Virus record (IMG/VR): IMGVR_UViG_3300025832_000008 | Coordinates: 1-63,566 of that record | Source of the DNA: a virus | DNA: 63,566 bases | Reading direction: 5' to 3' (one strand) | In this document: positions 3,490 to 63,566 of the stretch, piece by piece | Layout: each line of letters opens with the position of its first letter | Numbering within the stretch: position 1 is the first letter of the stretch | Position numbers and translations under genes: made by a program | The notes under the pieces: generated by a model | Seen by the model: only the letters and a program-made list of their open reading frames with translations | The model's database searches: none | Told to the model about the DNA's origin: nothing

Positions 3490-3536
3490 GTGTGACAATA
3501 GCCTTATAGATAGTATAGTAGGGGGCTAATGTCATA
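3490..3536. promoter_or_regulatory. Inverted-repeat operator, copy 1
   Basis: TGTGACAATAGCC and GGGGCTAATGTCATA form inverted arms around an AT-rich centre (TAGATAGTATAGTA). Related copies lie at 50972-51018 and 58111-58158. This one abuts the TAGTTTTG box that precedes the late operon. Confidence 0.7.
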
Positions 3537-3543
3537 GTTTTGA
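3536..3543 (+). promoter_or_regulatory. Candidate late promoter -7 box (TAGTTTTG)
   Basis: Matches TAnnTTTG, the Bacteroidota housekeeping -7 element, 48 bp upstream of the first late gene's preferred ATG. I see no clear -33 TTG at the usual distance, so an activator or the phage sigma factor may be involved. Confidence 0.45.
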
Positions 3544-3591
3544 ATATCTTCGTTAATGTGTAAGTATATAAGTATAATAAAAACAGTTACA

Positions 3592-4389: not shown

Positions 4390-4394
4390 ATAAC

Positions 4395-49615: not shown

Positions 49616-50362
49616 TCATAGGAAATCAACCACTTGCGATAATTTTATTTTTTTTGATAAAGAGTCTATAGCTTGTTTTTTGATCTGTGAAATTTTCACA
49701 TGGGCACTAGTGCCATTAATACCAATCAACTTAGCTATCTTTTTTGCTTTATGCTTATCACAGTCTAATCCATAACCTAATCTTAGTACCTCATATTCAT
49801 CGTGTGACAATGCTGTTTTCATTATACTTAGTATAAATGAGTTCAACATATCAACTCGATATTCTTTATTTGAATCTGGAATATTATAGTACACGTTATT
49901 ACTAACGTCATCGTCTATACTTTTAAATATAGAATTAAAAAACATTCTTACTTTTTCTTCGTCGCTCTCACCGGCATTTCGTATTTCGTTTATTTTATGT
50001 TCAGGTATTCTCATACCAGCTCTATTTATATCTATAGCTCTTCGTATTGCGCCTTTTATTCTTTTTGAGAAAAAGCTTTTTATACTTTTTTCAGTATCTT
50101 CTTTTGACAATGCAAAATCTATATCCCATTTATCTACTGCCTTTATTAGACCAATAGATCCTTCTTGTATTGCGTCTTCTATATTTATAATACCAGATGT
50201 CTGATCTGCCATTGAAAATCCTCTTGCTATGTTTTCAACTAATGGTAAAAACTTAATTATAAGTTCCTCTCTAGTATATTCATCCCAAAACTTTCCATCA
50301 GGTTGGTTGCACTTAACATCTTTTTTATATATAGTGTAGTTCTTTAAGCTGTAATTTTTCAT
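49616..50362 (-). CDS. RNA polymerase sigma factor (sigma-70 family), 248 aa
   Basis: Region 2-like: LVENIARGFSM, EDAIQEGSIGLIKAVDKWD and FSKRIKGAIRRAID (~30-120). Region 4-like helix-turn-helix: EYEVLRLGYGL...KAKKIAKLIGINGTSAHVKISQIKKQAIDSL (~180-240). It probably redirects host RNA polymerase to middle or late phage promoters. It overlaps the upstream HTH gene by 4 bp (ATGA). Confidence 0.88.
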   Translation of the reverse strand: MKNYSLKNYTIYKKDVKCNQPDGKFWDEYTREELIIKFLPLVENIARGFSMADQTSGIINIEDAIQEGSIGLIKAVDKWDIDFALSKEDTEKSIKSFFSKRIKGAIRRAIDINRAGMRIPEHKINEIRNAGESDEEKVRMFFNSIFKSIDDDVSNNVYYNIPDSNKEYRVDMLNSFILSIMKTALSHDEYEVLRLGYGLDCDKHKAKKIAKLIGINGTSAHVKISQIKKQAIDSLSKKIKLSQVVDFL

Positions 50363-50979
50363 AAACCATTGTTTAAAATTGTTTTCTCTTGTTTTAATTC
50401 ATCACCCATATTTCTATGGATCGTTCGAGAAGTACAACTCAATAGCTTAGCTATTTTACTTATAGTAATTCTTTCAGCATTGTTATTTATTTCTAACATA
50501 CATTGGTATATGTCATCTTTTTCAATACTTTTGGACCTACCTATTAGCTTACCAACAATTTTTAATTTCTCATCAACAGTTAAACCACAACCTATTTTAA
50601 ATATAACCTTACGCAGTCTATTCTTTGGTGCTAACTTAAATTCTTCATTATAAATCTCTGTTGCAAACTTAAGCAATAAACTACTTGGTACGTTTATTGA
50701 TACAAAGTTATTATGCTTATCAATTAAAAAGTAGCATAGTTCAAACCAATTAGCTTCAGGCATATCTTTATTTAAAAACCTAAGAACTAATAAATGCCAT
50801 TTTAAACTCTTGATAGAGTTAATCATAGCTTTTGTTCTGAATAACTCGTAACATTGATAAGTACCATCCTCGTAATACCAACCCCAGTTATAAAAATCAC
50901 TAGGTTTATCTGTCCAAGGATAACCAACATATATAATGCGTCGTCTATTTAACCATTCAGTATTTCGATTTTGTGACAT
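50359..50979 (-). CDS. Helix-turn-helix protein, 206 aa
   Basis: The C-terminal ~45 residues form an HTH (ITISKIAKLLSCTSRTIHRNMGDEL). The N-terminal part is aromatic-rich and unrecognised (IIYVGYPWTDKPSDFYNWGW). Its start codon lies inside an arm of the inverted-repeat operator 50972-51018, so it may regulate itself and the sigma factor gene it is coupled to. Could be a transcription regulator or replication-initiation protein. Confidence 0.7.
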   Translation of the reverse strand: MSQNRNTEWLNRRRIIYVGYPWTDKPSDFYNWGWYYEDGTYQCYELFRTKAMINSIKSLKWHLLVLRFLNKDMPEANWFELCYFLIDKHNNFVSINVPSSLLLKFATEIYNEEFKLAPKNRLRKVIFKIGCGLTVDEKLKIVGKLIGRSKSIEKDDIYQCMLEINNNAERITISKIAKLLSCTSRTIHRNMGDELKQEKTILNNGL

Positions 50980-51018
50980 TAGCCCCTTATTATATATATC
51001 TTAAGGCCTATTGTCACA
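50972..51018. promoter_or_regulatory. Inverted-repeat operator, copy 2
   Basis: TGTGACATTAGCCCC and GGCCTATTGTCACA flank an AT-rich centre. It overlaps the ATG of the HTH gene (50977-50979), so a bound protein or RNA hairpin would block expression. Same element as 3490-3536 and 58111-58158. Confidence 0.72.
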
Positions 51019-51080
51019 GTTTTGATAAAATCATGAATAGCCTATTTTTTTTAATAAAAAAATATTTGTGTGATTAAATG

Positions 51081-51602: not shown

Positions 51603-51926
51603 TTATTTTCGTTGCTCCGCACAGTATATTAATGATTTTTCAATGACATCTTGTATTTCTTCTAATATTTCACAAACAAAAACAATAGAGTCTATTTCAA
51701 TGGTTATTCTATTATCATAATCAAAATTAAAACTTAATTCCATTAAGTCATTAACATTAAAATCTGAAGCATCTATATTTGATAAAGTATTTTCAACTAT
51801 AGATTTGACTTCTGAAAATGTAAATAATTCTTCTTGCGTGTTTTTGTATTTTTCAACTAAATCTTCTAACTCTTTTGTGTTTTTGTGTTTTTCAACTAAA
51901 TCTTCTAACTCTTTAAGTAAACTCAT
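51603..51926 (-). CDS. Acidic coiled-coil protein with internal repeat, 107 aa
   Basis: Near the N-terminus ELEDLVEKHKNTK is followed directly by ELEDLVEKYKNTQ, a fresh 13-residue tandem duplication also seen in the DNA (51830-51915). The rest is acidic and helical (IVENTLSNIDASDFN). Driven by early promoter (n). Unrecognised. Confidence 0.7.
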   Translation of the reverse strand: MSLLKELEDLVEKHKNTKELEDLVEKYKNTQEELFTFSEVKSIVENTLSNIDASDFNVNDLMELSFNFDYDNRITIEIDSIVFVCEILEEIQDVIEKSLIYCAEQRK

Positions 51927-52068
51927 TTTTATTTGTATTTATTTGATTTTTATATATTTTACTACGTTTTATATCTGTAAGACACTGATAGCATATATGC
52001 TTTGTAGATATACCACTTGGTATCAATGTATTACAAATTCTACATCTTATATTATTTTCTCCATTCAT
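51913..52068 (-). CDS. Small zinc-ribbon-like protein, 51 aa
   Basis: ATG at 52068, overlapping the stop of the upstream gene. CRIC (C9, C12) and CYQC (C26, C29) form two CxxC pairs 13 residues apart, then a basic tail (KRSKIYKNQINTNKNEF). A small zinc-binding protein of unknown target. Confidence 0.65.
   Translation of the reverse strand: MNGENNIRCRICNTLIPSGISTKHICYQCLTDIKRSKIYKNQINTNKNEFT
51945..51981 (-). promoter_or_regulatory. Early phage promoter motif (n)
   Basis: TTACAG, 20 bases with AAACGTAG, then TATAAAAA. It is the most diverged member and lies inside the zinc-ribbon ORF, about 20 bp before the ATG at 51926. Confidence 0.6.
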
Positions 52069-52267
52069 TAAAAAAATCTTCTAATATATTTATTGAACTA
52101 TATCTATTTTCAAAAAATTCAACAACATCTTCTGATGTGTAGTTGTTTTTATACCATGATGGATAAAACTCTGTTACTTCATAGCCATTGATTTTCTCGT
52201 AAAAAGATATAACTTTCATTAATTGATATTTATCAAGATGTTCCCATTTTGCAGCTATTCCATCCAT
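52052..52267 (-). CDS. Hypothetical protein, 71 aa
   Basis: MDGIAAKWEHLDKYQLMKVI then YPSWYKNNYTSEDVVEFFENRY. Helical, aromatic-rich, unrecognised. Overlaps both neighbours by ~13-17 bp. Confidence 0.65.
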   Translation of the reverse strand: MDGIAAKWEHLDKYQLMKVISFYEKINGYEVTEFYPSWYKNNYTSEDVVEFFENRYSSINILEDFFNEWRK

Positions 52268-52410
52268 TGTTGTTCATTAAATTTTAATATTAAACTTCTT
52301 ATTTTTTTACCAAGCTCTGCATCGTTAGGTTCTTCATCTATTAAGGTATACATGTCGTGTAGCATGTATAGCATCTCAATTTCAGTTTTGCCTTTGTAAG
52401 TATTTGTCAT
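52255..52410 (-). CDS. Small acidic protein, 51 aa
   Basis: ATG at 52410: MTNTYKGKTEIEMLYMLHDM then LIDEEPNDAELGKKIRSLIL. Short helical protein, overlaps both neighbours. Unrecognised. Confidence 0.6.
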   Translation of the reverse strand: MTNTYKGKTEIEMLYMLHDMYTLIDEEPNDAELGKKIRSLILKFNEQQWME

Positions 52411-52747
52411 AATTTTTTAATATATAAGTTACTAAGTATTCATATCTAAGATGACGGTAATCTATAAGAACTCTTTGCTTGCATTCACGTCTATGTACTT
52501 TAAGATATTTATCTATCCAACCGAAAAAAGATTTAATACAAGGATTTATTTGGTAAGCATTAACGTTTTTATGGCTTATTAGCACTCTAACGTAGCCAGA
52601 CTTATAAATACCAAACTTTGGTTTATAACCCCACTTATTTTTTAAAGGTAATTCCCATATTTCTGTGCCATTTTTTTTCTGTATATCAGATGTAACTTCA
52701 GTACACCCAAAATGAATAAGCAACTCTTTAGATTCAACTATTGTCAT
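52382..52747 (-). CDS. Hypothetical protein, 121 aa, basic
   Basis: MTIVESKELLIHFGCTEVTS, beta segments (FGIYKSGYVRVLIS) and a basic helical C-terminus (KVHRRECKQRVLIDYRHLRY). It could bind nucleic acid, but no family is recognised. First gene after early promoter (i). Confidence 0.65.
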   Translation of the reverse strand: MTIVESKELLIHFGCTEVTSDIQKKNGTEIWELPLKNKWGYKPKFGIYKSGYVRVLISHKNVNAYQINPCIKSFFGWIDKYLKVHRRECKQRVLIDYRHLRYEYLVTYILKNYDKYLQRQN

Positions 52748-52761
52748 TGTTATTTAATTTT

Positions 52762-52799
52762 AATTATTATATATATTAGTACGTTATAGATCTGCAAGA
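52762..52799 (-). promoter_or_regulatory. Early phage promoter motif (i)
   Basis: TTGCAG, 20 bases with ATAACGTA, then TATAATAA, 15 bp upstream of the ATG at 52747. Confidence 0.78.
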
Positions 52800-52805
52800 G
52801 CAGTA

Positions 52806-53048
52806 TTATAAATTTATTCTTCTTGATCTAGCTAATGCCATTGTTATTTCATATGGCAAGCATTCGCATCCGTCATAATCAATTAGTTCACCGTCTTCAA
52901 ATATTAGTTTACCACAAGCATAATATATTGATCCTTCAGTATCTGAATCGTATAGCTCCCAAAAACCGTGTTCAATACCAAATATCTCACTTGGTACCAT
53001 AATTAGGTAATCTTTATCATGACTTTTGCCCTCGATCCTTTCAAACAT
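52806..53048 (-). CDS. Hypothetical protein, 80 aa, acidic
   Basis: MFERIEGKSHDKDYLIMVPS, EHGFWELYDSDTEGSIYYA and DGCECLPYE. Beta-rich, unrecognised. Overlaps the DnaA-like gene by 8 bp, so it is co-expressed with it. Confidence 0.65.
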   Translation of the reverse strand: MFERIEGKSHDKDYLIMVPSEIFGIEHGFWELYDSDTEGSIYYACGKLIFEDGELIDYDGCECLPYEITMALARSRRINL

Positions 53049-53487
53049 TAGTTATTTTATTTAATCCTACTATTTCTCTTACAATGTTTAATGTTTCAAC
53101 TAATGAACTAGGATCAATATTTCTTTTTTGAAATAAAAATATAGCGTCTTTCATTGTATTAACATGGTATATAACTGTAGCGTGATCTCTGTTTAGTATA
53201 CGCCCAACCTTAGGGAAGGTAATACCGTAATCAACGTAGAATATATAAGATAAGCATCGTCTAAGCATCACTAAATCAGCACCACGTTTTTTAGATATAA
53301 CTTCAGACACCGTGGCAATCTTAGTTGTTTCACAAACGGTCTTCATACTAGACATTGCTTTAGCAAGTCTTTGTGTGTTAATTCCATTTCTATCAGCGTT
53401 TTCTGTTACAACTGTTCTGTTTAGTGTTGAATATAGAGAATCTAATTCTGTTTGTTTTTCTCGTATTTCTTTAAGTAATTCTTCCAA
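53041..53487 (-). CDS. DnaA domain IV-like protein, 148 aa
   Basis: Residues ~65-125 match the DNA-binding domain of DnaA: RGADLVMLRRCLSYIF, FPKVGRILNRDHATVIYHV, with the signature RDHATV at 100-105. The AAA+ ATPase part is absent; the N-terminal 50 residues are a helical coil instead. It could bind DnaA-box-like sites to bring the host replisome to the phage origin, or titrate host origin sites. Located in the early region. Confidence 0.82.
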   Translation of the reverse strand: MEELLKEIREKQTELDSLYSTLNRTVVTENADRNGINTQRLAKAMSSMKTVCETTKIATVSEVISKKRGADLVMLRRCLSYIFYVDYGITFPKVGRILNRDHATVIYHVNTMKDAIFLFQKRNIDPSSLVETLNIVREIVGLNKITNV

Positions 53488-53488
53488 T

Positions 53489-53794
53489 TTAAAATAATTT
53501 TTGTGTTAATGCTATTTTAGCTGTTTTTGTTATCTCTTTATTTTTACCGCCTATATGCCAGTTTATTAATTCTTTTTTCTTAATCCATCCATATTCTTTC
53601 CAACAATATAATGTAAATATATCGCCGTTTTCAAATTGAAATAACCATTCGTACTGAACTTTTTCATCAGGTGGTCCTTCGTAATCTGGTTCACCAAGTT
53701 CTGCATAAAGCTCACTTAATGTTGCTTCTATAGAAACACCATGATACGATGTTCCATTTATCATGCTCTCATGATCTAGTCTTTTAAATTTCAT
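53489..53794 (-). CDS. Hypothetical protein, 101 aa
   Basis: GTSYHGVSIEATLSELYAEL, GEPDYEGPPDEKVQYEWLF and EYGWIKKKELINWHIGGKN. Trp/Tyr-rich acidic phage protein of a type seen in other phages, without known function. Coupled to the upstream membrane peptide by ATGA. Confidence 0.68.
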   Translation of the reverse strand: MKFKRLDHESMINGTSYHGVSIEATLSELYAELGEPDYEGPPDEKVQYEWLFQFENGDIFTLYCWKEYGWIKKKELINWHIGGKNKEITKTAKIALTQKLF

Positions 53795-53916
53795 GTTATT
53801 AAAGATATTAATTGTGATACTACATACATAACGCCATAGAAGAAAGCAAACCCTACTGGTACTATAATTAAATAAGCTATTATATGTAAAGCTGCTCTTA
53901 TAAATTCCTCACTCAT
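53791..53916 (-). CDS. Small membrane protein, 41 aa
   Basis: ATG at 53916: MSEEFIRAALHIIAYLIIVP then VGFAFFYGVMYVVSQLI. One long or two short transmembrane helices with almost no charge. First gene after early promoter (j). It may alter the host membrane early (for example superinfection exclusion), but this is only inferred from topology. Confidence 0.65.
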   Translation of the reverse strand: MSEEFIRAALHIIAYLIIVPVGFAFFYGVMYVVSQLISLIT

Positions 53917-53936
53917 GTTGTTATTTTATTTATTTT

Positions 53937-53973
53937 AGTTAATATATAATTTACTACGTTATAAATCTGCAAG
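53937..53973 (-). promoter_or_regulatory. Early phage promoter motif (j)
   Basis: TTGCAG, 20 bases with ATAACGTAG, then TATATTAA, about 21 bp upstream of the ATG at 53916. Confidence 0.78.
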
Positions 53974-53974
53974 T

Positions 53975-54104
53975 GTTATTAAAACCCCAACAAATAATGA
54001 CCACATCCCTTGTCTGAGTTCAGTGTATTGTCAAAAGTTGCTAGGGTTATGTGTTAAGGTTCTAACCTCCTCCCAAAGATTTATTTAACTTAACACAATT
54101 TCAT
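53975..54104. other. Non-coding gap with GC-richer segment
   Basis: No gene fits. It contains a short inverted repeat (GGTTCTAACC at ~54058-54067) and the segment CCACATCCCTTGTCTGAG. It lies between the end of the 89-aa gene and promoter (j). Possibly a terminator or small RNA; nothing firm. Confidence 0.35.
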
Positions 54105-54374
54105 TTAATCTTTCCAGATCATTACTGTTCCTGGATCATAATACTCGCAGTACCAACCTAATTTATCTAATTCTTTAACGAATTTATTTAGTACACCGAT
54201 TTCATATAGAGAACTTTCTGCATAGTAATCGAAAATATCTAATCCGTCTAATGTTTCACAATTTTCGGCGCTAACCCATATACCACCTGGAGTACCATCA
54301 AATTGTTCTGAAGTTCTAACAAATTTTAATCTTGTTTTCAAGAAGTCCATTACATTTTTTCTATTATTTTTCAT
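54105..54374 (-). CDS. Hypothetical protein, 89 aa
   Basis: ATG 54374 (MKNNRKNVMDFLKTRLKF) chosen; an ATG at 54383 is also possible. Has TPGGIWVSAENCETLDGLDI and GWYCEYYDPGTVMIWKD. Unrecognised acidic protein. Overlaps the upstream gene end. Confidence 0.65.
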   Translation of the reverse strand: MKNNRKNVMDFLKTRLKFVRTSEQFDGTPGGIWVSAENCETLDGLDIFDYYAESSLYEIGVLNKFVKELDKLGWYCEYYDPGTVMIWKD

Positions 54375-54612
54375 GTATAGCATCTATATTTTCTACTATA
54401 AGCTCATCACCATGTGCTGATTGTATAGTTAAACCTAACTCATTGAAAATATTTTCAAACGCTGTTGAGTTATCAATGATGTTGTTGAGGTGGACTGCCG
54501 CCACCGGATCGTCGGATGTTGCCATGTTTATGAATCCTAAATAGTCAGGAGACTTAGGATCAAATTGGTAGTCGGTTGCAATTACTTGCTGAATGAATTC
54601 TGTTGTTGTCAT
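54364..54612 (-). CDS. Hypothetical protein, 82 aa, acidic
   Basis: MTTTEFIQQVIATDYQFDPK, DDPVAAVHLNNIIDNSTAFE, IFNELGLTIQ. Helical, unrecognised. Confidence 0.65.
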   Translation of the reverse strand: MTTTEFIQQVIATDYQFDPKSPDYLGFINMATSDDPVAAVHLNNIIDNSTAFENIFNELGLTIQSAHGDELIVENIDAIHEK

Positions 54613-54650
54613 TTCTTTTAATTTTATTAAGTTATTAGTAATTCGTATAA

Positions 54651-54896
54651 TTAGCTGTCTATTGAAAATCTGATCATTCCATCAGAGATACATTTAGTAC
54701 CTCCGTAAACAGAACCTTCTGTTTCTTCTTCAACGGCACGTATCAAATCATGTGCACTAATGCCTATATTTCTTGGTATAGGATATTTAAAGTATTCAAT
54801 ACCATTTTCTGCTTTTTGTTTAGCTATTGTAATGATATTACCTACTTGAGTTCTTTGATTAATTTGTTGCTGATTTTTATTTACTTTTATTTTCAT
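54651..54896 (-). CDS. Hypothetical protein, 81 aa
   Basis: MKIKVNKNQQQINQRTQVGN then PRNIGISAHDLIRAVEEETE. Unrecognised. Separated by ~40 bp from its downstream neighbour. Confidence 0.62.
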   Translation of the reverse strand: MKIKVNKNQQQINQRTQVGNIITIAKQKAENGIEYFKYPIPRNIGISAHDLIRAVEEETEGSVYGGTKCISDGMIRFSIDS

Positions 54897-54901
54897 AATT
54901 T

Positions 54902-55120
54902 CTATTTGTTACTAAGTTGATTATAAATTTTTGTTAGTATTACTTGCATAAGATCTTCATATAGATCTTGGAATGTCTCATCTTCTTCAGTCATACAGTC
55001 TGCTTCAACAAAATCCATAACTTTGTAAGTTAACTCAGTTGCTGATATTTCCTTGCTTAGATTAAAGAAATAATCTACTGTGTCTTCTGACCACGTGAAT
55101 GCGCTTTTGTAATTTTTCAT
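54902..55120 (-). CDS. Hypothetical protein, 72 aa, acidic
   Basis: MKNYKSAFTWSEDTVDYFFN then DCMTEEDETFQDLYEDLMQV. Strongly acidic helical protein. Unrecognised. Confidence 0.65.
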   Translation of the reverse strand: MKNYKSAFTWSEDTVDYFFNLSKEISATELTYKVMDFVEADCMTEEDETFQDLYEDLMQVILTKIYNQLSNK

Positions 55121-55121
55121 T

Positions 55122-55265
55122 TTATACTTGTTTATGGAATTTCCAGATTTTATTGTACGCTTGTTTACTAAATTTAGCGTAGCTCTTTTTATTGGTGTAT
55201 AGCACTTTGTTGTATTCCTCTGAAGTAAACGGTGTACATTTTAGATTATCAACTGATACTTTCAT
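55122..55265 (-). CDS. Small basic protein, 47 aa
   Basis: ATG at 55265 overlaps the stop of the 61-aa paralog (TAATG). MKVSVDNLKCTPFTSEEYNK then basic aromatic NKKSYAKFSKQAYNKIWKFH. Unrecognised; real by tight coupling. A GTGTATAGCA word lies inside it. Confidence 0.62.
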   Translation of the reverse strand: MKVSVDNLKCTPFTSEEYNKVLYTNKKSYAKFSKQAYNKIWKFHKQV

Positions 55266-55450
55266 TAGTCTTTTTGATAATAAGTTAAACCTTTATAGTT
55301 AATGAACTGATATATACCATCAGCATCTCCATAGGATCTACAACCAAACTTATTAGGTATTTTACATAGATCGAAATGCTCGAACTTTTGACCATTTAGA
55401 GTTATAATTTTCTTAAATGAAGTCGGTGAGTTAAATTTTAGATTTGCCAT
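55265..55450 (-). CDS. Early protein, 61 aa, paralog of 1616-1801
   Basis: Shares KFNS-T-FKK-I-LNG-KFEHFDL--IP-KFGC and INYKGLTY with the 61-aa protein at 1616-1801. Here it begins MANLKFNSPTSFKK. Driven by early promoter (k). Function unknown. Confidence 0.78.
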   Translation of the reverse strand: MANLKFNSPTSFKKIITLNGQKFEHFDLCKIPNKFGCRSYGDADGIYQFINYKGLTYYQKD

Positions 55451-55471
55451 TATGTTTATTTATTTAATTTA

Positions 55472-55508
55472 AGTTATTATATAATCACTTTCGTTATAGA
55501 TCTGCAAG
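55472..55508 (-). promoter_or_regulatory. Early phage promoter motif (k)
   Basis: TTGCAG, 20 bases with ATAACGAAAG, then TATAATAA, about 22 bp upstream of the ATG at 55450. It overlaps the end of the upstream gene. Confidence 0.78.
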
Positions 55509-55856
55509 TAACAACAGTAACATCTTTAGTTCTTCAACTGTTTCAGCTTGAAACTCATTTAAGAGCTCTTCACCGTATATATAAACTAACATGTTAACAG
55601 TGTTTTCACTATTATCGTAAATACCATATGTGTCACCATAATTGTCCCTTTCATATTGTTGGCAAATACTTACCGCTTCAAACGGATCTATGTTATGCTT
55701 TTGAAGCCACATATTACATTCAAAGTACCCTATAATATAGTAATCCTCGTTAAACGCCTGAAAGTGCCACTCTTCAGTATTATCATTTGTTAGTACACCT
55801 TCGTTAACAAGGTCTAAAACGTATCTTGTTAGTTCTATTTTTATTGAGTGTTTCAT
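55494..55856 (-). CDS. Hypothetical protein, 120 aa, acidic
   Basis: MKHSIKIELTRYVLDLVNEG, EEWHFQAFNEDYYIIGYFEC, DPFEAVSICQQYERDNYGDT, ending in LKMLLLLLADL. Conserved-type phage protein, unrecognised. Confidence 0.68.
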   Translation of the reverse strand: MKHSIKIELTRYVLDLVNEGVLTNDNTEEWHFQAFNEDYYIIGYFECNMWLQKHNIDPFEAVSICQQYERDNYGDTYGIYDNSENTVNMLVYIYGEELLNEFQAETVEELKMLLLLLADL

Positions 55857-55862
55857 ATCTTG

Positions 55863-56018
55863 TTAACAACATTTACATTTACTCCATTCTTTTCCGTTCC
55901 TACAGGTCTCACCCATATCTTCGTACTCGTCATCAAATACAGCGTGCTCTAGGCATTCACCGCATAGTTCGTCACTTAGGTAGCTAGCTTCAGCTCCACA
56001 ACAATTACTTGTACTCAT
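55863..56018 (-). CDS. Small Cys-rich zinc-binding-like protein, 51 aa
   Basis: ATG at 56018: MSTSNCCGAEASYLSDELCG. NCCGAE...LCGECLEHA gives two Cys pairs of a zinc ribbon (Cys6/7 and Cys19/22), and KCKCC ends the protein. Small CxxC proteins of this shape are common in phages. Overlaps the upstream gene by 14 bp. Confidence 0.7.
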   Translation of the reverse strand: MSTSNCCGAEASYLSDELCGECLEHAVFDDEYEDMGETCRNGKEWSKCKCC

Positions 56019-56304
56019 GTTTTACTGTTATCAATTTATTATCTATATCTAATGTTATAATACCGTCTTTAAATTCTTTAAGTCTTTTAAGTATGTCGTG
56101 TTTATTACCTTTGATTCCAAAGTATTTTTTTACATCACCTATTTTCCAATGAGCGTTAGGCTTCATACCTGTATGTACATATATACTTAGCTCACATACA
56201 AGACAGCATAGATTGTAGTACCCTCTATTAGATTGCTTACCATTTATCATTAAAGGTTTAGCCCAGTCTTTCTCAAACGGTGTTGGTTCAATTACTTTTT
56301 TCAT
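56005..56304 (-). CDS. Hypothetical phage protein, 99 aa
   Basis: EPTPFEKDWAKPLMINGKQS, YYNLCCLVCELSIYVHTGMK and HWKIGDVKKYFGIKGNKHDI. Possibly a small nucleic-acid-binding fold; no family recognised. Coupled by ATGA to its upstream gene. Confidence 0.65.
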   Translation of the reverse strand: MKKVIEPTPFEKDWAKPLMINGKQSNRGYYNLCCLVCELSIYVHTGMKPNAHWKIGDVKKYFGIKGNKHDILKRLKEFKDGIITLDIDNKLITVKHEYK

Positions 56305-56495
56305 GATTCTTGATTTTTTAAATAGTTAAAGTGTTCCGTGTATAGCAACTCAAGGTCACTAATGGTTAATGGTACACGATTTAGTTCTTTCGATGTAGAG
56401 ACTATTTGTTCTCGTTGATCTATAGTTAGTTGATTCCACCAATGCCACACGCCTGAGCTTCTGCTAACATGGTTATATGTTTTATTATTTCTCAT
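56301..56495 (-). CDS. Hypothetical protein, 64 aa
   Basis: MRNNKTYNHVSRSSGVWHWW then ISDLELLYTEHFNYLKNQES. Unrecognised. Contains a GTGTATAGCA word on the opposite strand. Confidence 0.63.
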   Translation of the reverse strand: MRNNKTYNHVSRSSGVWHWWNQLTIDQREQIVSTSKELNRVPLTISDLELLYTEHFNYLKNQES

Positions 56496-56500
56496 ATTTA

Positions 56501-56767
56501 CTAAGTGTTATCGCTAATATATGACATGAAGTCAAGTGCGGTTACACAAGGATCATCGTGCTCGTTACCACCAGGTGTATGTTGGTATTCAATGCCACAT
56601 GTCTGAGCTTCTGCATCCCACCAGAACATGTATCCAAATGAGCTTACATCTTTGCGATCTATATAATCTTTAATATAGATTTCAGTGCTTGATTTTTCTA
56701 CATACTCGTAGTAACTAGCTATTAGTTTAATTTCTTCTTCAATGTTAATTGCTTTGTCGTTTTTCAT
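56501..56767 (-). CDS. Hypothetical protein, 88 aa, acidic
   Basis: MKNDKAINIEEEIKLIASYY, YMFWWDAEAQTCGIEYQHTP, HDDPCVTALDFMSYI. Unrecognised acidic early protein. First gene after promoter (l). Confidence 0.66.
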   Translation of the reverse strand: MKNDKAINIEEEIKLIASYYEYVEKSSTEIYIKDYIDRKDVSSFGYMFWWDAEAQTCGIEYQHTPGGNEHDDPCVTALDFMSYISDNT

Positions 56768-56790
56768 TATGTGCGTTATTATTAATTTAT

Positions 56791-56826
56791 AGGTTAATAT
56801 ATATTTTAGTTCGTTATAGATCTGTT
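56791..56826 (-). promoter_or_regulatory. Early phage promoter motif (l)
   Basis: ACAG, 20 bases with ATAACGAAC, then TATATTAA, 24 bp upstream of the ATG at 56767. It overlaps the stop of the upstream gene. Confidence 0.72.
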
Positions 56827-57123
56827 GGTTACTATTTCACCGTTAATCATTTTGGTTGTAGTTCCATCTTTCCATTTAATTTCTATATCGTCTTTCTCGT
56901 TTACTAATTGTTCTTTTATCATTAGATTCACTAACCATACTAGATCATCAATTAGATCTTGTTCGTCTTCTCTTGGACAGTCAACCTCGTCTTCTATATA
57001 AAAGGTCACTTCACAACGTAACTCATCGGGATTCCTCATGCCTATCTCTATAAAGTGGTCTAATACTTCCTCTTTCCAGACATCGTCTTCTCTTGGGTTT
57101 CTTATCCTTAGGTACTTCTCCAT
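56806..57123 (-). CDS. Hypothetical protein, 105 aa, acidic
   Basis: MEKYLRIRNPREDDVWKEEV, EVTFYIEDEVDCPREDEQDL, WKDGTTTKMINGEIV. Unrecognised. Confidence 0.67.
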   Translation of the reverse strand: MEKYLRIRNPREDDVWKEEVLDHFIEIGMRNPDELRCEVTFYIEDEVDCPREDEQDLIDDLVWLVNLMIKEQLVNEKDDIEIKWKDGTTTKMINGEIVTNRSITN

Positions 57124-57135
57124 AATTTCTATTTA

Positions 57136-57360
57136 TTACTGATCTTTTTTAAGTGTCATTGAATTTACTTTATCTATAAGTTCATTGCCTACCATTGTGA
57201 AGTAGCCTTCAGCGTAACGATAAACAGTATCAGGAACTAAAATAGGTGTTTTACCACTATTGCCCATATGTATTACTTCTTGTTCAGCTTGTTTAATAGC
57301 TTCTTGTAACGCTGTGGTTATAAACCACTTTTCAAATCCGTTAAATTTAGTTCTACTCAT
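57136..57360 (-). CDS. Hypothetical protein, 74 aa
   Basis: MSRTKFNGFEKWFITTALQE, IHMGNSGKTPILVPDTVYRY. Helix then beta, unrecognised. Confidence 0.66.
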   Translation of the reverse strand: MSRTKFNGFEKWFITTALQEAIKQAEQEVIHMGNSGKTPILVPDTVYRYAEGYFTMVGNELIDKVNSMTLKKDQ

Positions 57361-57370
57361 GTTTACTTAT

Positions 57371-57580
57371 TTAATTTTTAATTGCTTTTAAGTGTACAGC
57401 ATTTGCTTCAGCACCGTACACTAGGTTAATTAATTTATTTCTGTAAATTAACTCTGTTCTGTGATTCTTGAAATTAAACTCAATCTCAATATGAGCATCT
57501 ATTTGCTCAATTACCTCTTCTTTGGTAAGATAAGCGCTAATAAATCTGAAGTGATCAATAGCATTAGTTGTTAGTTCCAT
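57371..57580 (-). CDS. Hypothetical protein, 69 aa
   Basis: MELTTNAIDHFRFISAYLTK then EQIDAHIEIEFNFKNHRTEL. Helical, unrecognised. Overlaps its upstream neighbour by 10 bp. Confidence 0.65.
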   Translation of the reverse strand: MELTTNAIDHFRFISAYLTKEEVIEQIDAHIEIEFNFKNHRTELIYRNKLINLVYGAEANAVHLKAIKN

Positions 57581-57837
57581 GGTTTCTGTAATTTATTTAT
57601 TAGTAAGTAAGTCATACCACAAGAGTCAAAATGAGTTGAAAATTCTATTTTATTACTTATTAGTTCTAAAACTATATCAGTTATATTATGGATATACTCA
57701 TACACTATATAACTATTTTCTTGAGTGTAATAATCATACTTGTCTTTGTATTCTGTATTATCAATTAAGTATTCAGCGAAACCGTTTCCGTCTTTGTACT
57801 CTTTACTTAATATTGGTAACTTGGTTAAGTCAATCAT
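57571..57837 (-). CDS. Hypothetical protein, 88 aa
   Basis: MIDLTKLPILSKEYKDGNGF, YTQENSYIVYEYIHNITDIV, HFDSCGMTYLLINKLQKPWN. Unrecognised. First gene after promoter (m). The rightward ORFs here are shadows. Confidence 0.66.
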   Translation of the reverse strand: MIDLTKLPILSKEYKDGNGFAEYLIDNTEYKDKYDYYTQENSYIVYEYIHNITDIVLELISNKIEFSTHFDSCGMTYLLINKLQKPWN

Positions 57838-57860
57838 AGTTGAAAATTTATTAAATTATA

Positions 57861-57897
57861 GGTTATTATATATTATACTTCGTTATAGATCTGCAAG
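57861..57897 (-). promoter_or_regulatory. Early phage promoter motif (m)
   Basis: TTGCAG, 20 bases with ATAACGAAG, then TATAATAA, 24 bp upstream of the ATG at 57837. Confidence 0.8.
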
Positions 57898-58110
57898 ACA
57901 CTGTAATAGAAGCCATCTAATGACTTTAAATAGCTATAATGGTAAATACTATTAATTGTAGTATTAATATTATTAAGAGTTGATAAGAATGCTTTTTAAA
58001 CATGGTAATGGATATTATTAGTTAAATAGAATTATAGTATGCTAAAACAGTGGTTGTTGGTTATACAACTAATCTCTGCATCAAGCATAGTTTTAGTACA
58101 ATAAAAAAAC

Positions 58111-58158
58111 TGTGACATTAGGCCATTAGATATACTATAGTAAGGGGCTATTGTCACA
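58111..58158. promoter_or_regulatory. Inverted-repeat operator, copy 3
   Basis: TGTGACATTAGGCC and GGGGCTATTGTCACA flank TAGATATACTATAG. The best-conserved copy; the palindrome extends into TCACA(C/G)TTTT on both sides. Confidence 0.72.
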
Positions 58159-58186
58159 CTTTTAATAACGGTGTATAGCAAAGGTT

Positions 58187-58220
58187 AAAAAAGAGAGACC
58201 ACCAATAAAGGTGATCCCTC
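58187..58220 (-). terminator. Intrinsic terminator downstream of the structured RNA candidate
   Basis: Leftward GAGGGATCACC-TTTATT-GGTGGTCTCTC followed by TTTTTT. It ends transcripts from the 97-aa gene and the region 58241-58413. Confidence 0.85.
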
Positions 58221-58240
58221 ATAACCAACCAACTATTAAA

Positions 58241-58413
58241 TTATAAAAAATAATACAGTGGTCTGACTCAAGGCTTCTACCAGACTGTACGCTAAGTAAT
58301 TCTCTATTTAATTAAGCCATCTATATCTCATCTGACTCGCACAGATAGTATCTCGTATATCCTTCTAGGAGATATTTTTACTTAATGAACTAGTAGCACT
58401 GTATTATTTATAA
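58241..58413 (-). ncRNA. Candidate structured non-coding RNA, ~170 nt
   Basis: AAATAATACAGTG (58248-58260) and CACTGTATTATTT (58397-58409) pair perfectly over 13 bp; with a 3-base bulge the stem continues (TTATAAA/TTTATAA). Inside are GTCTG/CAGAC, ATCTG/CAGAT and TATCTC/GAGATA hairpins and a possible AAGTAA/TTACTT helix, a branched fold. It contains no ORF and lies between the 97-aa gene and a terminator. The leftward strand has a U-run just after the closing stem, like a 3' end. No known RNA family recognised. Confidence 0.55.
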
Positions 58414-58417
58414 CCTA

Positions 58418-58711
58418 TTATTCACTTGCATCTGTAATAGTAACACTGTCAAGAGATCTAGCGAACGCCGGTACTGCATTGGAATTGGTATAATTACCAT
58501 ATTTCTCAAAGCAAGGCATTTCATCAAACCTTTGCTTATTACTATTATATACTTCATCATGGTCATAGGTATACTTTGTACCTTTCGAGTTGGTGAAGCT
58601 TACTAGTGTGCCTGTTCCAATAAGAGATTTTCTTATTACAAAGCGTTTAGTAATAATAGAGTTAACTGTTTTTGCTTCCGTAGAAGACTTTGTTGCTTTT
58701 TTAGTTGCCAT
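58418..58711 (-). CDS. RFVIRKSLIG-family early protein, paralog 4 (97 aa)
   Basis: Has the family core (RFVIRKSLIG, YDHDEVYN, MPCFEKYGNYTNSNAVPAFAR) plus an extra ~22-residue N-terminus rich in Lys/Thr/Ser (MATKKATKSSTEAKTVNSII) and a short acidic tail. It is the most diverged member and the only one with the extension. Promoter (a) copy at 58740-58774. The structured RNA candidate follows it directly. Confidence 0.88.
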   Translation of the reverse strand: MATKKATKSSTEAKTVNSIITKRFVIRKSLIGTGTLVSFTNSKGTKYTYDHDEVYNSNKQRFDEMPCFEKYGNYTNSNAVPAFARSLDSVTITDASE

Positions 58712-58739
58712 TTGACTGTTTATTTAATTGATTTATAAG

Positions 58740-58774
58740 ATATTATATATATTGCTTCGTTTTAAATCTGCAAG
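58740..58774 (-). promoter_or_regulatory. Early promoter (a), right copy
   Basis: Same sequence as 65-99; drives the intact 97-aa gene starting at 58711. Confidence 0.77.
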
Positions 58775-58825
58775 TGCTCACTTTGCGCTTGGTTAAGTTC
58801 ATTATATTTAATTATTTAAATTATA

Positions 58826-58861
58826 GGTTATTATATATATCACTTCGTTAAGAATCTGCGA
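58826..58861 (-). promoter_or_regulatory. Early promoter (b), right copy
   Basis: Same as 151-186. The 23-base insertion lies just beyond its GTGTATAGCA word. Confidence 0.7.
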
Positions 58862-58909
58862 GTGTATAGCACTTCGTGCTTGTAATAATTTTACTCAATA
58901 ACAGACAAT

Positions 58910-58983
58910 ACTTTGAAGTGATCAATAAAAAGTGTGACGTAGGGTGGAGTATACTCTTCCAACCCCTATTTCACTGGTCGGCC
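58910..58983 (-). ncRNA. Structured 3' element copy 1, right copy
   Basis: Same sequence as 212-285, unchanged although the flanks carry substitutions. Confidence 0.58.
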
Positions 58984-59009
58984 TACTTAGCGAGTGTATA
59001 TCAGAGTGC

Positions 59010-59213
59010 TTACCTTATCCAGCCATCACCATAACCGGTGATTGCTCTAACCCACTTATAGCTTTTCTCGCCACTTTGTGGATAATCAACTCTCTCGCAA
59101 CCGCTTCGAAAGTCGTAGTTAAACACTACAGAATCTCTTTTTAAGAGCATTCTACATATATAGAGACCACTATAATTGAATAGGATCGCTACATTATACC
59201 TTACATTCTTCAT
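59010..59213 (-). CDS. Early hypothetical protein, 67 aa, right copy (variant)
   Basis: Allele of 312-515 with three amino-acid changes (L8V, E9A, E46Q). The gene stays open, so both alleles look functional. Confidence 0.7.
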   Translation of the reverse strand: MKNVRYNVAILFNYSGLYICRMLLKRDSVVFNYDFRSGCERVDYPQSGEKSYKWVRAITGYGDGWIR

Positions 59214-59248
59214 AATAATTGGTATTTAATTGATTAATTTATTTGAAT

Positions 59249-59281
59249 TGTTATATAACTTACTTCGTCAAGTGTCTGTGA
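59249..59281 (-). promoter_or_regulatory. Early promoter (c), right copy
   Basis: Same as 551-583. Confidence 0.65.
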
Positions 59282-59324
59282 GTTAAAACACCCGCCAAGC
59301 ACGTTACTTGGCGAGTGTGTAGCA

Positions 59325-59645
59325 CTATGATACTTTATTGTACCATATTTGCTTCAATTCTGATTCTATGTCTTCTGCACTAGCATTATCAAGTTCATCA
59401 TTAAGTAGATCACCTAAGTAATTTCTTCTTGGTTCAACTTGTGAGCTGTATAGTGCTATCACTTTGTACATCTCTTCATAGTCAGGGATGTCTTGATCTG
59501 GTGATTTCACCCAATACTTGTCTTCACTGTTGTCTTGATCATGAGTGACACAGAAAATAAATTCTTGTAGTCTCTCAAACTCTTCACCCCAAATAGTCTT
59601 CACTAATTTAGAGTATGTTTCATAGTTAAATTCCTTCTTTGTCAT
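59325..59645 (-). CDS. Early hypothetical protein, 106 aa, right copy
   Basis: Identical to 627-947, with the same hairpin (59293-59313) and promoter. Confidence 0.75.
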   Translation of the reverse strand: MTKKEFNYETYSKLVKTIWGEEFERLQEFIFCVTHDQDNSEDKYWVKSPDQDIPDYEEMYKVIALYSSQVEPRRNYLGDLLNDELDNASAEDIESELKQIWYNKVS

Positions 59646-59670
59646 GAGTATTAAAATTAATTGATTTACA

Positions 59671-59707
59671 GGTTATTATATAATTTACTTCGTCAAGAAT
59701 CTGCAAG
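59671..59707 (-). promoter_or_regulatory. Early promoter (d), right copy
   Basis: Same as 973-1009. Confidence 0.78.
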
Positions 59708-59742
59708 AAACGAGTGTATAGCATTACACTTACAATGACAAC

Positions 59743-59828
59743 ACCTTGAGGTGACGATGTGAATTGACATACAAAAGTATGACGCAGGTCGGAGTATACT
59801 CTTCTGACCCCTGTCTCACTGGTCAGCC
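59743..59828 (-). ncRNA. Structured 3' element copy 2, right copy
   Basis: Same as 1045-1130. Confidence 0.58.
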
Positions 59829-59858
59829 TTTAAACTTAGTATGTTAGAGAGTGGTTAT

Positions 59859-60245
59859 TTACTTAGGTAAATCACCATCCAGCCACCATTCAAAAGCAAT
59901 TTGCTTTGCTACCACATACATCAGAGCATCATAAGGTGTATAACCTTCTTCAAACTCCCAGCCATTGTAAGTTTCACACCCGAGTAACTCTAAACAAGAG
60001 ATTTTGTCAAGGTGATCAAGCAGCAGTGGATCGTGGTGGTCGGTGACGTGTGTTAGAAGCGTCATACTCTCTTCCATATACTCATGAGCTTCGCTTTTAT
60101 CACTTACTCCTTCAAAGTCATACTCAGGGTGTATATATGCCACTTGCATATCATACCCATTTAACTGAGCGTCTAGTTGATACTCATCTGGTGAACCTTT
60201 CACCGATACGAGTATATCATTTTTAGTGTTACTACAATTTTCCAT
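59859..60245 (-). CDS. Early hypothetical protein, 128 aa, right copy
   Basis: Identical to 1161-1547. Confidence 0.72.
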   Translation of the reverse strand: MENCSNTKNDILVSVKGSPDEYQLDAQLNGYDMQVAYIHPEYDFEGVSDKSEAHEYMEESMTLLTHVTDHHDPLLLDHLDKISCLELLGCETYNGWEFEEGYTPYDALMYVVAKQIAFEWWLDGDLPK

Positions 60246-60313
60246 AATATATAAAATTAAATTGGTTACTTGTTTAAATTAGAGGACGCTCTTGCGAGCA
60301 TCCTCATTAGTTG

Positions 60314-60499
60314 TTATTTAGTAAAATAGGTGAGTCCTTTGTAGTTGATATAACTACTAATTCCTTCGCCACCTGTTGAAGTATTAATACAACCAAATTT
60401 CTTTGGTATATTATTTAAGTCAAAATGCTCGAATTTTACTCCGTTTAGTCGAATTGCTTTCTTGAAAACAGTTTGACTGTTAAATTTAATAACGCTCAT
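60314..60499 (-). CDS. Early protein, 61 aa, right copy
   Basis: Identical to 1616-1801; paralog of 55265-55450. Hairpin at 60282-60305 follows it. Confidence 0.8.
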   Translation of the reverse strand: MSVIKFNSQTVFKKAIRLNGVKFEHFDLNNIPKKFGCINTSTGGEGISSYINYKGLTYFTK

Positions 60500-60545
60500 A
60501 ATAATTAATTGGTTTTAATTTATATATAAATAATTTTATATATAA

Positions 60546-60581
60546 ATTAATATATAAATCACTTCGTTAAGAATCTGCAAG
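60546..60581 (-). promoter_or_regulatory. Early promoter (e), right copy
   Basis: Same as 1848-1883. Confidence 0.78.
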
Positions 60582-60650
60582 AAATTCGCTGGTTTCTTTG
60601 CGAGTGTATAGCACTTTTTTACAGGTATTGGTTAAGGTGGTGGACGATGT

Positions 60651-60683
60651 AAAAAAAAAGGACAGCCTTGCGGCCATCCTTTT
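60651..60683 (-). terminator. Terminator of 75-aa cassette 1, right copy
   Basis: Same as 1953-1985. Confidence 0.9.
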
Positions 60684-60689
60684 GTTGGT

Positions 60690-60917
60690 TTATGACTTAG
60701 TTACTGATTCACATCCTCTAGCAAATGCTGGAACAGCATTAGTGTTGGTGTAATTTTTGTACTTGGCAAAGCATTCCATACCCTCAAATTTAACCTTAAA
60801 GGTGTTATACACTTCATCATGATCATACTTCCAATTTTCACCTTTTTTGTTGGTAAATTCAATAATTTCACCTTTACCAATTAGTGACTTTCTAATAACA
60901 AATCTGTTGGTTTTCAT
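60690..60917 (-). CDS. RFVIRKSLIG-family protein, paralog 1, right copy
   Basis: Identical to 1992-2219. Confidence 0.88.
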   Translation of the reverse strand: MKTNRFVIRKSLIGKGEIIEFTNKKGENWKYDHDEVYNTFKVKFEGMECFAKYKNYTNTNAVPAFARGCESVTKS

Positions 60918-60968
60918 AATAATAAAAATTAAATAAAATAAATTAAAAATTAAATAAATTAAATATAA

Positions 60969-61004
60969 ATTATTATATATTTAAACTCGTTAAGAATCTG
61001 CAAG
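60969..61004 (-). promoter_or_regulatory. Early promoter (f), right copy
   Basis: Same as 2271-2306. Confidence 0.8.
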
Positions 61005-61051
61005 AGTGTATAGCAGCTTGCTGCTAAATAATATATACGATATATGCAGAT

Positions 61052-61083
61052 GAAAAAAAGGGATACCCTTTCGGATATCCCTT
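61052..61083 (-). terminator. Terminator of 75-aa cassette 2, right copy
   Basis: Same as 2354-2385. Confidence 0.9.
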
Positions 61084-61090
61084 GTGCTAC

Positions 61091-61318
61091 TTACGATTTT
61101 TTCACGCTTGGCAGCTGGCGAGCAAAAGCAGGCACCGCGTTTGTGTTCGTATAATTTTTATACTTAGCGAAGCACGGCATAGCTTCAAATTTGCTCTTGT
61201 GAGCGTTATAAACTTCATCATGATCATACGACCAGGTTTCACCCTTTTTGTTAGTGAACTCGATGGTTTCACTTTGACCAATTAATGACTTTCTGATAAC
61301 AAATCTGTTAGTTTTCAT
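61091..61318 (-). CDS. RFVIRKSLIG-family protein, paralog 2, right copy
   Basis: Identical to 2393-2620. Confidence 0.88.
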   Translation of the reverse strand: MKTNRFVIRKSLIGQSETIEFTNKKGETWSYDHDEVYNAHKSKFEAMPCFAKYKNYTNTNAVPAFARQLPSVKKS

Positions 61319-61456
61319 AACATGTTGGTTTGTGTTAATAATTATAGTTAATTTGAATAATTATTAACTGGTTTATAAATAATATTTAAAAGAACTGATA
61401 TATATATAAAAATAATAAAGGTTTAATTTTTTATATTATTATTTTAAAATATATAA

Positions 61457-61490
61457 ATTAATATATATTTAAACTCGTTAAGAATCTGTA
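61457..61490 (-). promoter_or_regulatory. Early promoter (g), right copy
   Basis: Same as 2759-2792. Confidence 0.75.
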
Positions 61491-61538
61491 TAGCATTTGC
61501 AGCTTGCTGCAATAAAATGAGTAGATAAAAAGAAGAGT

Positions 61539-61573
61539 AAAAAAAAGGGACAGCCTCTCGGCTATCCCCTTTT
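61539..61573 (-). terminator. Terminator of 75-aa cassette 3, right copy
   Basis: Same as 2841-2875. Confidence 0.9.
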
Positions 61574-61575
61574 GA

Positions 61576-61803
61576 TTAGGACTTGGTAACGCTTGGCAGT
61601 TCGCGAGCGAATGCAGGCACCGTGTTCGTGTTAGTATAGTTCTTATACTTGGCGAAGCAAGGCATGCTTTCGAACTTGCTCTTGTGAGCGTTATACACTT
61701 CGTCGTGATTGTAAGACCAGGTTTGACCCTGTTTGTTGGTGAACTCAATCACTTCATTCTTACCTATTAACGACTTTCTAATAACGAATCTGTTAGTTTT
61801 CAT
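61576..61803 (-). CDS. RFVIRKSLIG-family protein, paralog 3, right copy
   Basis: Identical to 2878-3105. Confidence 0.88.
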   Translation of the reverse strand: MKTNRFVIRKSLIGKNEVIEFTNKQGQTWSYNHDEVYNAHKSKFESMPCFAKYKNYTNTNTVPAFARELPSVTKS

Positions 61804-61928
61804 AACATGTTGGTTTTATGTTAATAATTATAGATTGTTTTGATAATTATTAACTGGTTTAAAATAAATTTTAATTTTTAATAAAATAATAAAATTAAAT
61901 TTTTATATTATTATTTTATTTTTATATA

Positions 61929-61962
61929 AATTATTATATAAATTTGCTCGTTAAGAATCTGT
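61929..61962 (-). promoter_or_regulatory. Early promoter (h), right copy
   Basis: Same as 3231-3264. Confidence 0.77.
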
Positions 61963-62187
61963 ATAGCATTTTATTTATATTATTTATACCATACTACCGG
62001 GGAAAAGGTGAAATACTTAGTAGATATTATATAAAACCCAAAAAAATTTACGAAAAACTCTATAAAACAGGGGGACCCCTTTCGTTTCAAAAAACTTTCT
62101 TTTTTATTTTTTTATTTTCAAAATAAGGTATTATACAAATACTCTCTACATCTAAGTACTCTCTACAAACACTCTCTACAAAAAAAA

Positions 62188-62234
62188 GTGTGACAATAGC
62201 CTTATAGATAGTATAGTAGGGGGCTAATGTCATA
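62188..62234. promoter_or_regulatory. Inverted-repeat operator copy 1, right copy
   Basis: Same as 3490-3536. The three ACTCTCTACA repeats precede it at 62141-62180, and the TAGTTTTG box follows at 62234-62241. Confidence 0.7.
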
Positions 62235-62289
62235 GTTTTGAATATCTTCGTTAATGTGTAAGTATATAAGTATAATAAAAACAGTTACA

Positions 62290-63087
62290 ATGCAAACATG
62301 GTTAAATAGAAAGATCCAGGGTCCTCGTCAAGTTGGTGGAGGTGATAAGAAAAAAGGTGGTGTAAAACCTTATGTAACATATGACCGTGACGACCCAAGG
62401 ATTCAGTCGCACAGTGATAGTTTAGCTTCATATAATAATAGTAATAATGAATATTATGAACAATTTAAGTATGAGGATGATAGGAACAGGGCTGGAGAGG
62501 CAGAGTATCAAAGTAGACTTTCTGATGAGGACAGGGAATGGCAAAGGGCAAGAGGCGTTGAGCGTAAGCCCGAACCTTTACTAAGTAAGCAAGAAATTAT
62601 TTCAAGGGGTAGAAAATGGGCAGAGCCTGTTACCAATGTAAAGTATGCTTCAGATGGAGGAGACCCGTCTAAAAAGCGGCATTATATGAATTATACACCC
62701 CCTACGGCCACTACTAGGCCAGCGGGTGTAGTAGGCCCTGGAACTCCTGGATATAGTAGTATGAAAAATAAATCAATAAAACCAACTTCTTTTATACAAT
62801 CAGATGGGTATGTGAAGGCGGTTTTTTTTGATAAACCTAAACAGGAAGTAATACTTAAGGGTTTAGAAAAGATGCCTATACTTAAAGGTAGTAGTAAGTT
62901 AGCATCTCCGAAAATTATTGATAGAAAATTAACGTCTAGAAAATTCACTACATCTCTATACAATCCCAATCCTAAAAAAAATAGTGCGGATTATAAAAAA
63001 TATGGAGAAGTAAATTTTGGAGATAGAAGAGGTAACAAAGTATTGAATAAAGACCAATTTGTTAGCTTTGAGAAGTTTAAAAAATAA
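62290..63087 (+). CDS. QTWLNRK family member 1, right copy
   Basis: Identical to 3592-4389, with the same preferred start (MQTWLNRK). Confidence 0.75.
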   Translation: MQTWLNRKIQGPRQVGGGDKKKGGVKPYVTYDRDDPRIQSHSDSLASYNNSNNEYYEQFKYEDDRNRAGEAEYQSRLSDEDREWQRARGVERKPEPLLSKQEIISRGRKWAEPVTNVKYASDGGDPSKKRHYMNYTPPTATTRPAGVVGPGTPGYSSMKNKSIKPTSFIQSDGYVKAVFFDKPKQEVILKGLEKMPILKGSSKLASPKIIDRKLTSRKFTTSLYNPNPKKNSADYKKYGEVNFGDRRGNKVLNKDQFVSFEKFKK

Positions 63088-63092
63088 ATAAC

Positions 63093-63566
63093 ATGATGAG
63101 ACAAACATGGTTAAATAGAAAAATAAATGGTCCTCGTCAAGTTGGTGAAGGTGTTAAACCTTATATAGCTAAAGACGATGCTGACTACGCTAAACGAACA
63201 CAAATGTATAATGATAGCTTAGCTGCGCACAATGCAACAGAGAATATTATCAATACTTTGAGAACCCCTAATATGATTGTCGATGATAATCCATATACGG
63301 ATCATAATTATTATACAAATGTAGAAGGTAGTACAGGTGACCTCAATAGTAAGCCATATGAATCTTATAGTGGTGTTAAGGGTGTTGCTCAAGATATTAA
63401 GACATTAAAGAGAACAGATAAGAGCTTAGGTAATACAGAGTCTGTTAAGAGTAAGATATATTATGATGGTGGAGGTGTAGGTCGTAGCCGTCACCGCTAT
63501 TCTACATTTGAATTACCGTATCGTCCAAAACCTAAGCAACCTATAGAAAGTAATAGATCTGATATG
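63093..63566 (+). CDS. QTWLNRK family member 2, right copy (partial, cut by window edge)
   Basis: Same as the first 474 bases of 4395-5081; the frame is open to the end of the window. Confidence 0.75.
   Translation, partial: MMRQTWLNRKINGPRQVGEGVKPYIAKDDADYAKRTQMYNDSLAAHNATENIINTLRTPNMIVDDNPYTDHNYYTNVEGSTGDLNSKPYESYSGVKGVAQDIKTLKRTDKSLGNTESVKSKIYYDGGGVGRSRHRYSTFELPYRPKPKQPIESNRSDM

Follow-up and report, generated by a model that had tools for sequence, protein, structure and literature searches.

Bacterial small RNAs derived from 3' UTRs are located on the coding strand, in the interval from a stop codon to an intrinsic terminator. tRNA-like structures and acceptor/T-arm minihelices are substrates of RNase P and of other factors that bind the tRNA elbow. 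MITEs are short units with inverted-repeat ends, located at differing sites. Theta and hammerhead ribozymes are small structured phage RNAs found near tRNAs or gene ends (PMC10879173; Rfam RF00008). The unit analyzed here appears to be a phage structured RNA, which is a known kind of element, and to be undescribed as a family. With a rough probability of 0.6, it is a laterally exchanged, accessory, minus-strand structured RNA of an undescribed family, located in a 3' UTR and carrying a cap that resembles the acceptor/T-arm half of tRNA.

The analyzed stretch of DNA, herein referred to as the window, is a single contig (63,566 bases) from a phage. About 4.87 kb is shared by its two ends at 99.3% identity, which gives a genome size of about 58.7 kb; the mismatched overlap suggests a circular map assembled from mixed strains, not a true terminal repeat. 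The terminase of this phage is 62% identical to the one in an unclassified Manatee Spring podovirus and 45% identical to those of Flavobacterium elemo phages. The phage is of the Flavobacterium type, and the carriers of the unit are related phages of Bacteroidota. The phage also encodes its own sigma factor (49616-50362). The coding strand at the locus is the minus strand, on which the RFVIRKSLIG gene (58711-58418) is followed by the unit and then by the terminator (58220-58193). The features of the window are as follows.

58719-58776, minus strand: promoter-like repeat of family D1 upstream of the fourth RFVIRKSLIG gene, one of at least 12 copies
58418-58711, minus strand: fourth RFVIRKSLIG gene, 97 aa, with the unit in its 3' UTR
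58244-58413, minus strand: predicted structured RNA unit with a closing stem, three-way junction, short hairpin and long arm (model R1, 205 bits; homologues L002, L099, L105 and L106)
58397-58409, minus strand: closing stem, 5' arm, perfectly complementary to 58248-58260 and covarying in L105 and L106
58323-58375, minus strand: apical module, near-invariant across lineages while the helix beneath it changes, with a tRNA acceptor/T-arm layout
58369-58375 with 58323-58329, minus strand: 7-bp helix of the apical module
58347-58368, minus strand: 22-nt linker of the apical module
58330-58346, minus strand: 5-bp stem and 7-nt T-loop-like loop of the apical module
58261-58285, minus strand: second hairpin, 5 bp with a 15-nt loop, invariant in five sequences
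58248-58260, minus strand: closing stem, 3' arm, perfectly complementary to 58397-58409 and covarying in L105 and L106
58193-58220, minus strand: intrinsic terminator 3' of the unit, with an 11-bp stem, 6-nt loop and U run
1-4868 and 58676-63566: contig-end overlap, with 9 mismatches and a 23-nt indel

The initial annotation, made from the window alone, had proposed a structured RNA here from two perfectly complementary 13-base arms, the absence of an ORF, a leftward terminator with a U run and the adjoining fourth RFVIRKSLIG gene, and all four observations were confirmed. The stem extension to 58241/58413, also proposed there, is present in the window and not conserved, as L002 has one A fewer and L099 has lost the outer pairing. 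The arms form the sole inverted repeat of at least 13 bp with at least three G/C in the window (span 220 nt). In dinucleotide shuffles, 0.42 such repeats are expected per genome, or 0.22 with at least three G/C; a 13-bp repeat of such span is not rare by chance. The longest stop-free runs are 22 codons on the minus strand and 29 codons on the plus strand. Protein coding in the unit was rejected, the frames being short and shifted between homologues by indels. No match to the product of the fourth RFVIRKSLIG gene was found in Pfam or PHROG.

Folding energy of 58241-58413 gave z -2.4 on the plus strand and -1.2 on the minus strand, and that of 58227-58417 gave -3.0 and -0.9, respectively. For 58180-58420, the corresponding values were -3.9 and -3.4, with the terminator included. 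About 14% of sampled 190-nt windows of the genome reach z of -2 or lower. The minus-strand folding energy of the unit is ordinary, and the plus strand scores better. The repeat, the missing ORF and the terminator, taken alone, are weak evidence, and energy alone is no proof of an RNA; the case is made by the homologues.

When viral contigs were searched for the paired arms, only the near-identical L002 was recovered. The same paired-arm pattern, searched against bacterial and archaeal genomes, returned L099, with 94% identity over the unit. Although binned as Saprospiraceae, this contig comes from a closely related phage, whose terminase and that of the window are 100% identical. A search with an internal 23-mer returned L105 (54.5 kb) and L106 (6.2 kb), in which the unit has about 88% and 95% identity to the window, respectively, and flanks unlike those of the window. 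In total, the unit of about 167 nt occupies three non-syntenic genomic positions in three lineages: the window with L002 and L099, L106, and L105. L105 also contains a second copy, herein copy b, in which the inner module alone is kept and the terminal repeats are missing.

Among 84 related phage records, many of which are fragments, model R1 detected the unit in three (L105, L106 and L002), and helix pairs change together among the homologues. No unit was found with stricter filters in about 690 Bacteroidota genomes except in the L099 phage contig, and no real match was found in phage and plasmid collections, where the Borrelia plasmid matches consist of 27 AT-rich bases. A weak model match in L125 (13.5 bits, E 0.2) was attributed to chance. 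The last permissive viral pattern returned only L112 and L113, which are unrelated false positives.

The predicted fold was evaluated on five aligned sequences. It comprises 45 pairs, with 97.8% of cells paired, a percentage that leans towards the structure since the consensus was picked from the arms of the window and the RNAalifold result. The slid controls and pair changes are less biased towards it: both-side changes were found in 3 pairs, against 0 in all six slid controls. The covariation score was reached by 10 of 500 shuffles, a control that ignores relatedness, with three independent lineages and few independent changes behind the score. The clearest pair of the closing stem is U-A in the window group, U.G in L106 and C-G in L105. 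All closing-stem changes pair as minus-strand RNA, and four cells are mismatched as plus-strand RNA. Several nested hairpins had been proposed inside the stem; several do fit, but they are partly mutual alternatives, and the comparison of homologues favors one arrangement. The two short hairpins are invariant, and therefore covariation speaks neither for nor against them.

The helix beneath the apical module keeps its pairing between the window and L105, although 9 of 41 columns have changed in one strand and 13 of 22 in the other, against 1 of 42 columns in the apical module and 1 of 56 in the 3' block. In L105 copy b, the helix under the module is paired with yet another sequence. Such changing helices beneath an invariant cap are, on this alignment, the trace of selection on a predicted RNA fold in three lineages. 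The earlier proposal of a structured RNA is thus supported for the minus strand by covariation and strand-specific wobbles in these lineages, and a regulatory role of such an RNA, also suggested there, is possible.

The same data bear on a DNA-level structure, that is, a replication origin or a packaging or recombination site. The inverted repeat is long, the stretch is noncoding and it lies about 260 bases from the start of the end repeat of the contig. As RNA of the minus strand, however, 220 of 225 cells of the whole structure pair, against 208 as plus-strand RNA; the unit is accessory and non-syntenic, and the mismatched overlap of the contig ends leaves no defined genome end. The origin structure considered in the initial annotation does not agree with a unit that is missing from the closest relative and most others, varies in position and changes in ways that pair as RNA of one strand only. 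A DNA site is therefore extremely improbable.

The closest relative with the equivalent gene is L013 (gene 76% and terminase 79% identical), which is without the unit. In L013, the stop codon runs directly into GTTGGTTG, which in the window follows the unit, and then into a terminator immediately 3' of the stop codon, with a hairpin and U run comparable to those of the window. Since the stop codon of L013 joins the terminator directly, the 3' UTR of the gene in the window carries the unit as an accessory cassette. In L115-L117, which are relatives of L105, a different gene occupies the site; absence of the unit is shown there, with no clean empty site. In further relatives, different extra sequence occupies the space past the last RFVIRKSLIG gene (L003:8228-8490, with a small ORF, and L006:8234-8520), and this interval therefore looks like an accessory hot spot.

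Although L105 is part of the same broad phage group (terminase 74% identical to that of the window), the gene preceding its unit is a different one, with a match to PHROG 16091. The unit of L106 lies about 226 nt past the upstream stop codon, and therefore the 3'-UTR position is loose in L106. L105 and L106 share about 110 nt more on the 3' side of the unit (L105:2034-2144 and L106:3929-4039, both minus strand), at 98% identity, and then diverge. The complements AACGTG/CACGTT and GGATAG/CTATCC are interleaved in this segment and could form a pseudoknot. A short peptide in the segment was rejected as conserved coding, a stop in L106 being Trp in L105, and its translation had no meaningful protein match.

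A unit with inverted-repeat ends, sharp boundaries, different sites and a clean site without it in L013 might be a MITE-like selfish DNA element, the repeats being transposon ends and the RNA fold incidental. The likeness to MITEs extends to the short length. The terminal inverted repeats are present in four homologues but absent from L105 copy b, which keeps the inner module. Furthermore, the apparent TAATAG target-site duplication of the window is not reproduced in L099, no parent element was seen, each genome except L105 has a single copy, and the changes preserve pairing on one strand only, a covariation at the RNA level that is unlike MITEs. Such an element is improbable here.

The structured-RNA reading also has to be weighed against a purely cis-acting 3'-end element, a stabilizer of the mRNA end or a termination aid with no partner and no tRNA mimicry. 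This alternative is consistent with the window, where the unit separates the stop codon from the terminator, and with copies a and b of L105, which start 23 and 8 nt past a stop codon. A plain stabilizer, however, needs no 42 near-invariant apical positions on a freely changing helix, and the other paralogous RFVIRKSLIG genes of the window lack the unit. We regard a purely cis-acting element as possible, though rather unlikely. The unit shares with 3'-UTR-derived bacterial small RNAs its place between stop codon and intrinsic terminator on the coding strand; unlike them, it is accessory and laterally exchanged.

The minus strand of the apical module reads AUAUCUC, the 22-nt linker CUAGAAGGAUAUACGAGAUACU, AUCUG, UGCGAGU, CAGAU and GAGAUAU, and the 7-bp helix runs without a gap into the 5-bp stem with its 7-nt loop. 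The acceptor/T-arm half of tRNA has the same continuous arrangement. Additionally, the module shares with the tRNA T-loop U54, C56, purine 57, A58, pyrimidine 60 and the G-C closing pair, and with tRNA a GG in the linker. It differs from tRNA-like structures and minihelices in the G at position 55 of the loop, the lack of a CCA end and of an anticodon arm, and its embedding within a larger closed fold; in L105 copy b, moreover, its helix is much longer than 7 bp. The T-arm layout was found at one place in the window, with 0-0.05 expected, under a loosened T-loop rule chosen after the module was seen; under the strict TTCRANY rule, nothing was found in the window. Neither ARAGORN nor the Rfam tRNA model detected a tRNA gene in the window.

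In the loci fetched from related phages, 37 canonical T-arms were found, against at most 1 in shuffles, and 16 of them have an acceptor-like helix joined by 9-30 nt, against 0 in shuffles. Several of these minihelices directly follow RFVIRKSLIG-family genes, and ARAGORN called a single ordinary tRNA in 20 loci. Members of this phage group thus habitually place tRNA-like pieces near gene ends, and this makes a tRNA-elbow reading more probable a priori. Examples of tRNA-like minihelices are found at L034:3334, L041:839, L061:3315, L062:4281, L079:4950, L044:4570 and L047:4372. Some are preceded by an apparent H-type pseudoknot, such as CCAGT..ACTTGTT..ACTGG..AACAAGT in L062.

No match to the unit was found among 4227 Rfam families at the gathering score or at E up to 10, the 6S models included. 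The best weak matches, sau-41 and the L20 leader, were far below the cut-offs and were rejected; the L20 leader match is essentially the terminator. The unit shares with 6S RNA a length of about 170-190 nt and closed ends. Unlike 6S RNA, it has a three-way junction with a side arm (closing stem, long arm and short hairpin) instead of a rod with one central bubble, and a gene-linked accessory position, and the earlier suggestion of a 6S-like decoy is not upheld.

An invariant internal loop on a variable helix might also belong to a self-cleaving ribozyme of an undescribed type. Phage ribozymes adjoining tRNAs are known (PMC10879173), and L105 carries a type III hammerhead soon after another gene. 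The unit shares with theta and hammerhead ribozymes the nature of a small structured phage RNA near a gene end; unlike them, it has no known catalytic core and no match to their models or to any other Rfam ribozyme. Such a ribozyme is very improbable.

In a narrower form of the structured-RNA reading, the invariant cap would mimic the tRNA elbow and acceptor arm and capture a host or phage tRNA-binding factor, the unit being one of several post-gene minihelices of these phages; we consider this form tentative and on the whole unlikely. We infer the biochemical role of the unit as follows. Transcription from the promoter-like repeat (58719-58776), to which a promoter role is assigned by its position, would run through both the RFVIRKSLIG gene and the unit. 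The closed fold might remain on the transcript as a 3' domain and shield its 3' end, or it might come free together with the terminator, giving a discrete RNA of about 170-230 nt. The cap could then bind a recognizer of the tRNA elbow, such as RNase P, a tRNA-modifying enzyme or a phage protein, and this binding would serve processing in cis or act as a decoy in trans.

Other elements were found in these phages. The promoter-like repeat is present in at least 12 copies upstream of early genes in the window (51926-61967), with a minus-strand sequence of approximately CTTGCAGATTCTTAACGAAGTNNNTTATATAATAA. A conserved inverted motif, approximately TGTGACAATAGCC-TGTTACT-loop-TTAAT-AGGCTAATGTCACA, is located in the window at 58111-58158, with related copies near 50972-51028 and 62184-62244. 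It occurs in 51 of the searched loci; related phages contain at least 60 distinct copies, whereas mononucleotide shuffles give 0.4, and the motif often lies immediately 3' of RFVIRKSLIG genes. Because its inner pairs are often mismatched, the motif is as likely to be a protein-binding DNA site or a bidirectional terminator as an RNA. It probably corresponds to the element earlier annotated as an operator. The type III hammerhead ribozyme is located at L105:5936-5990 (minus strand), 33 nt past the stop codon of a 325-aa gene, and scores 52.6 bits, above the Rfam cut-off. With regard to a retron msr-msd, which would adjoin a reverse transcriptase gene, the ORFs near the unit are small, and no reverse transcriptase was found in those of them that were scanned.

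The unit represents a phage RNA family that is missing from Rfam and apparently passes from one genome to another as a noncoding accessory cassette. Its invariant cap is directly testable against tRNA enzymes. If the tRNA-elbow reading is true, there would be a class of small viral RNAs that follow genes and exploit the tRNA machinery of the host.
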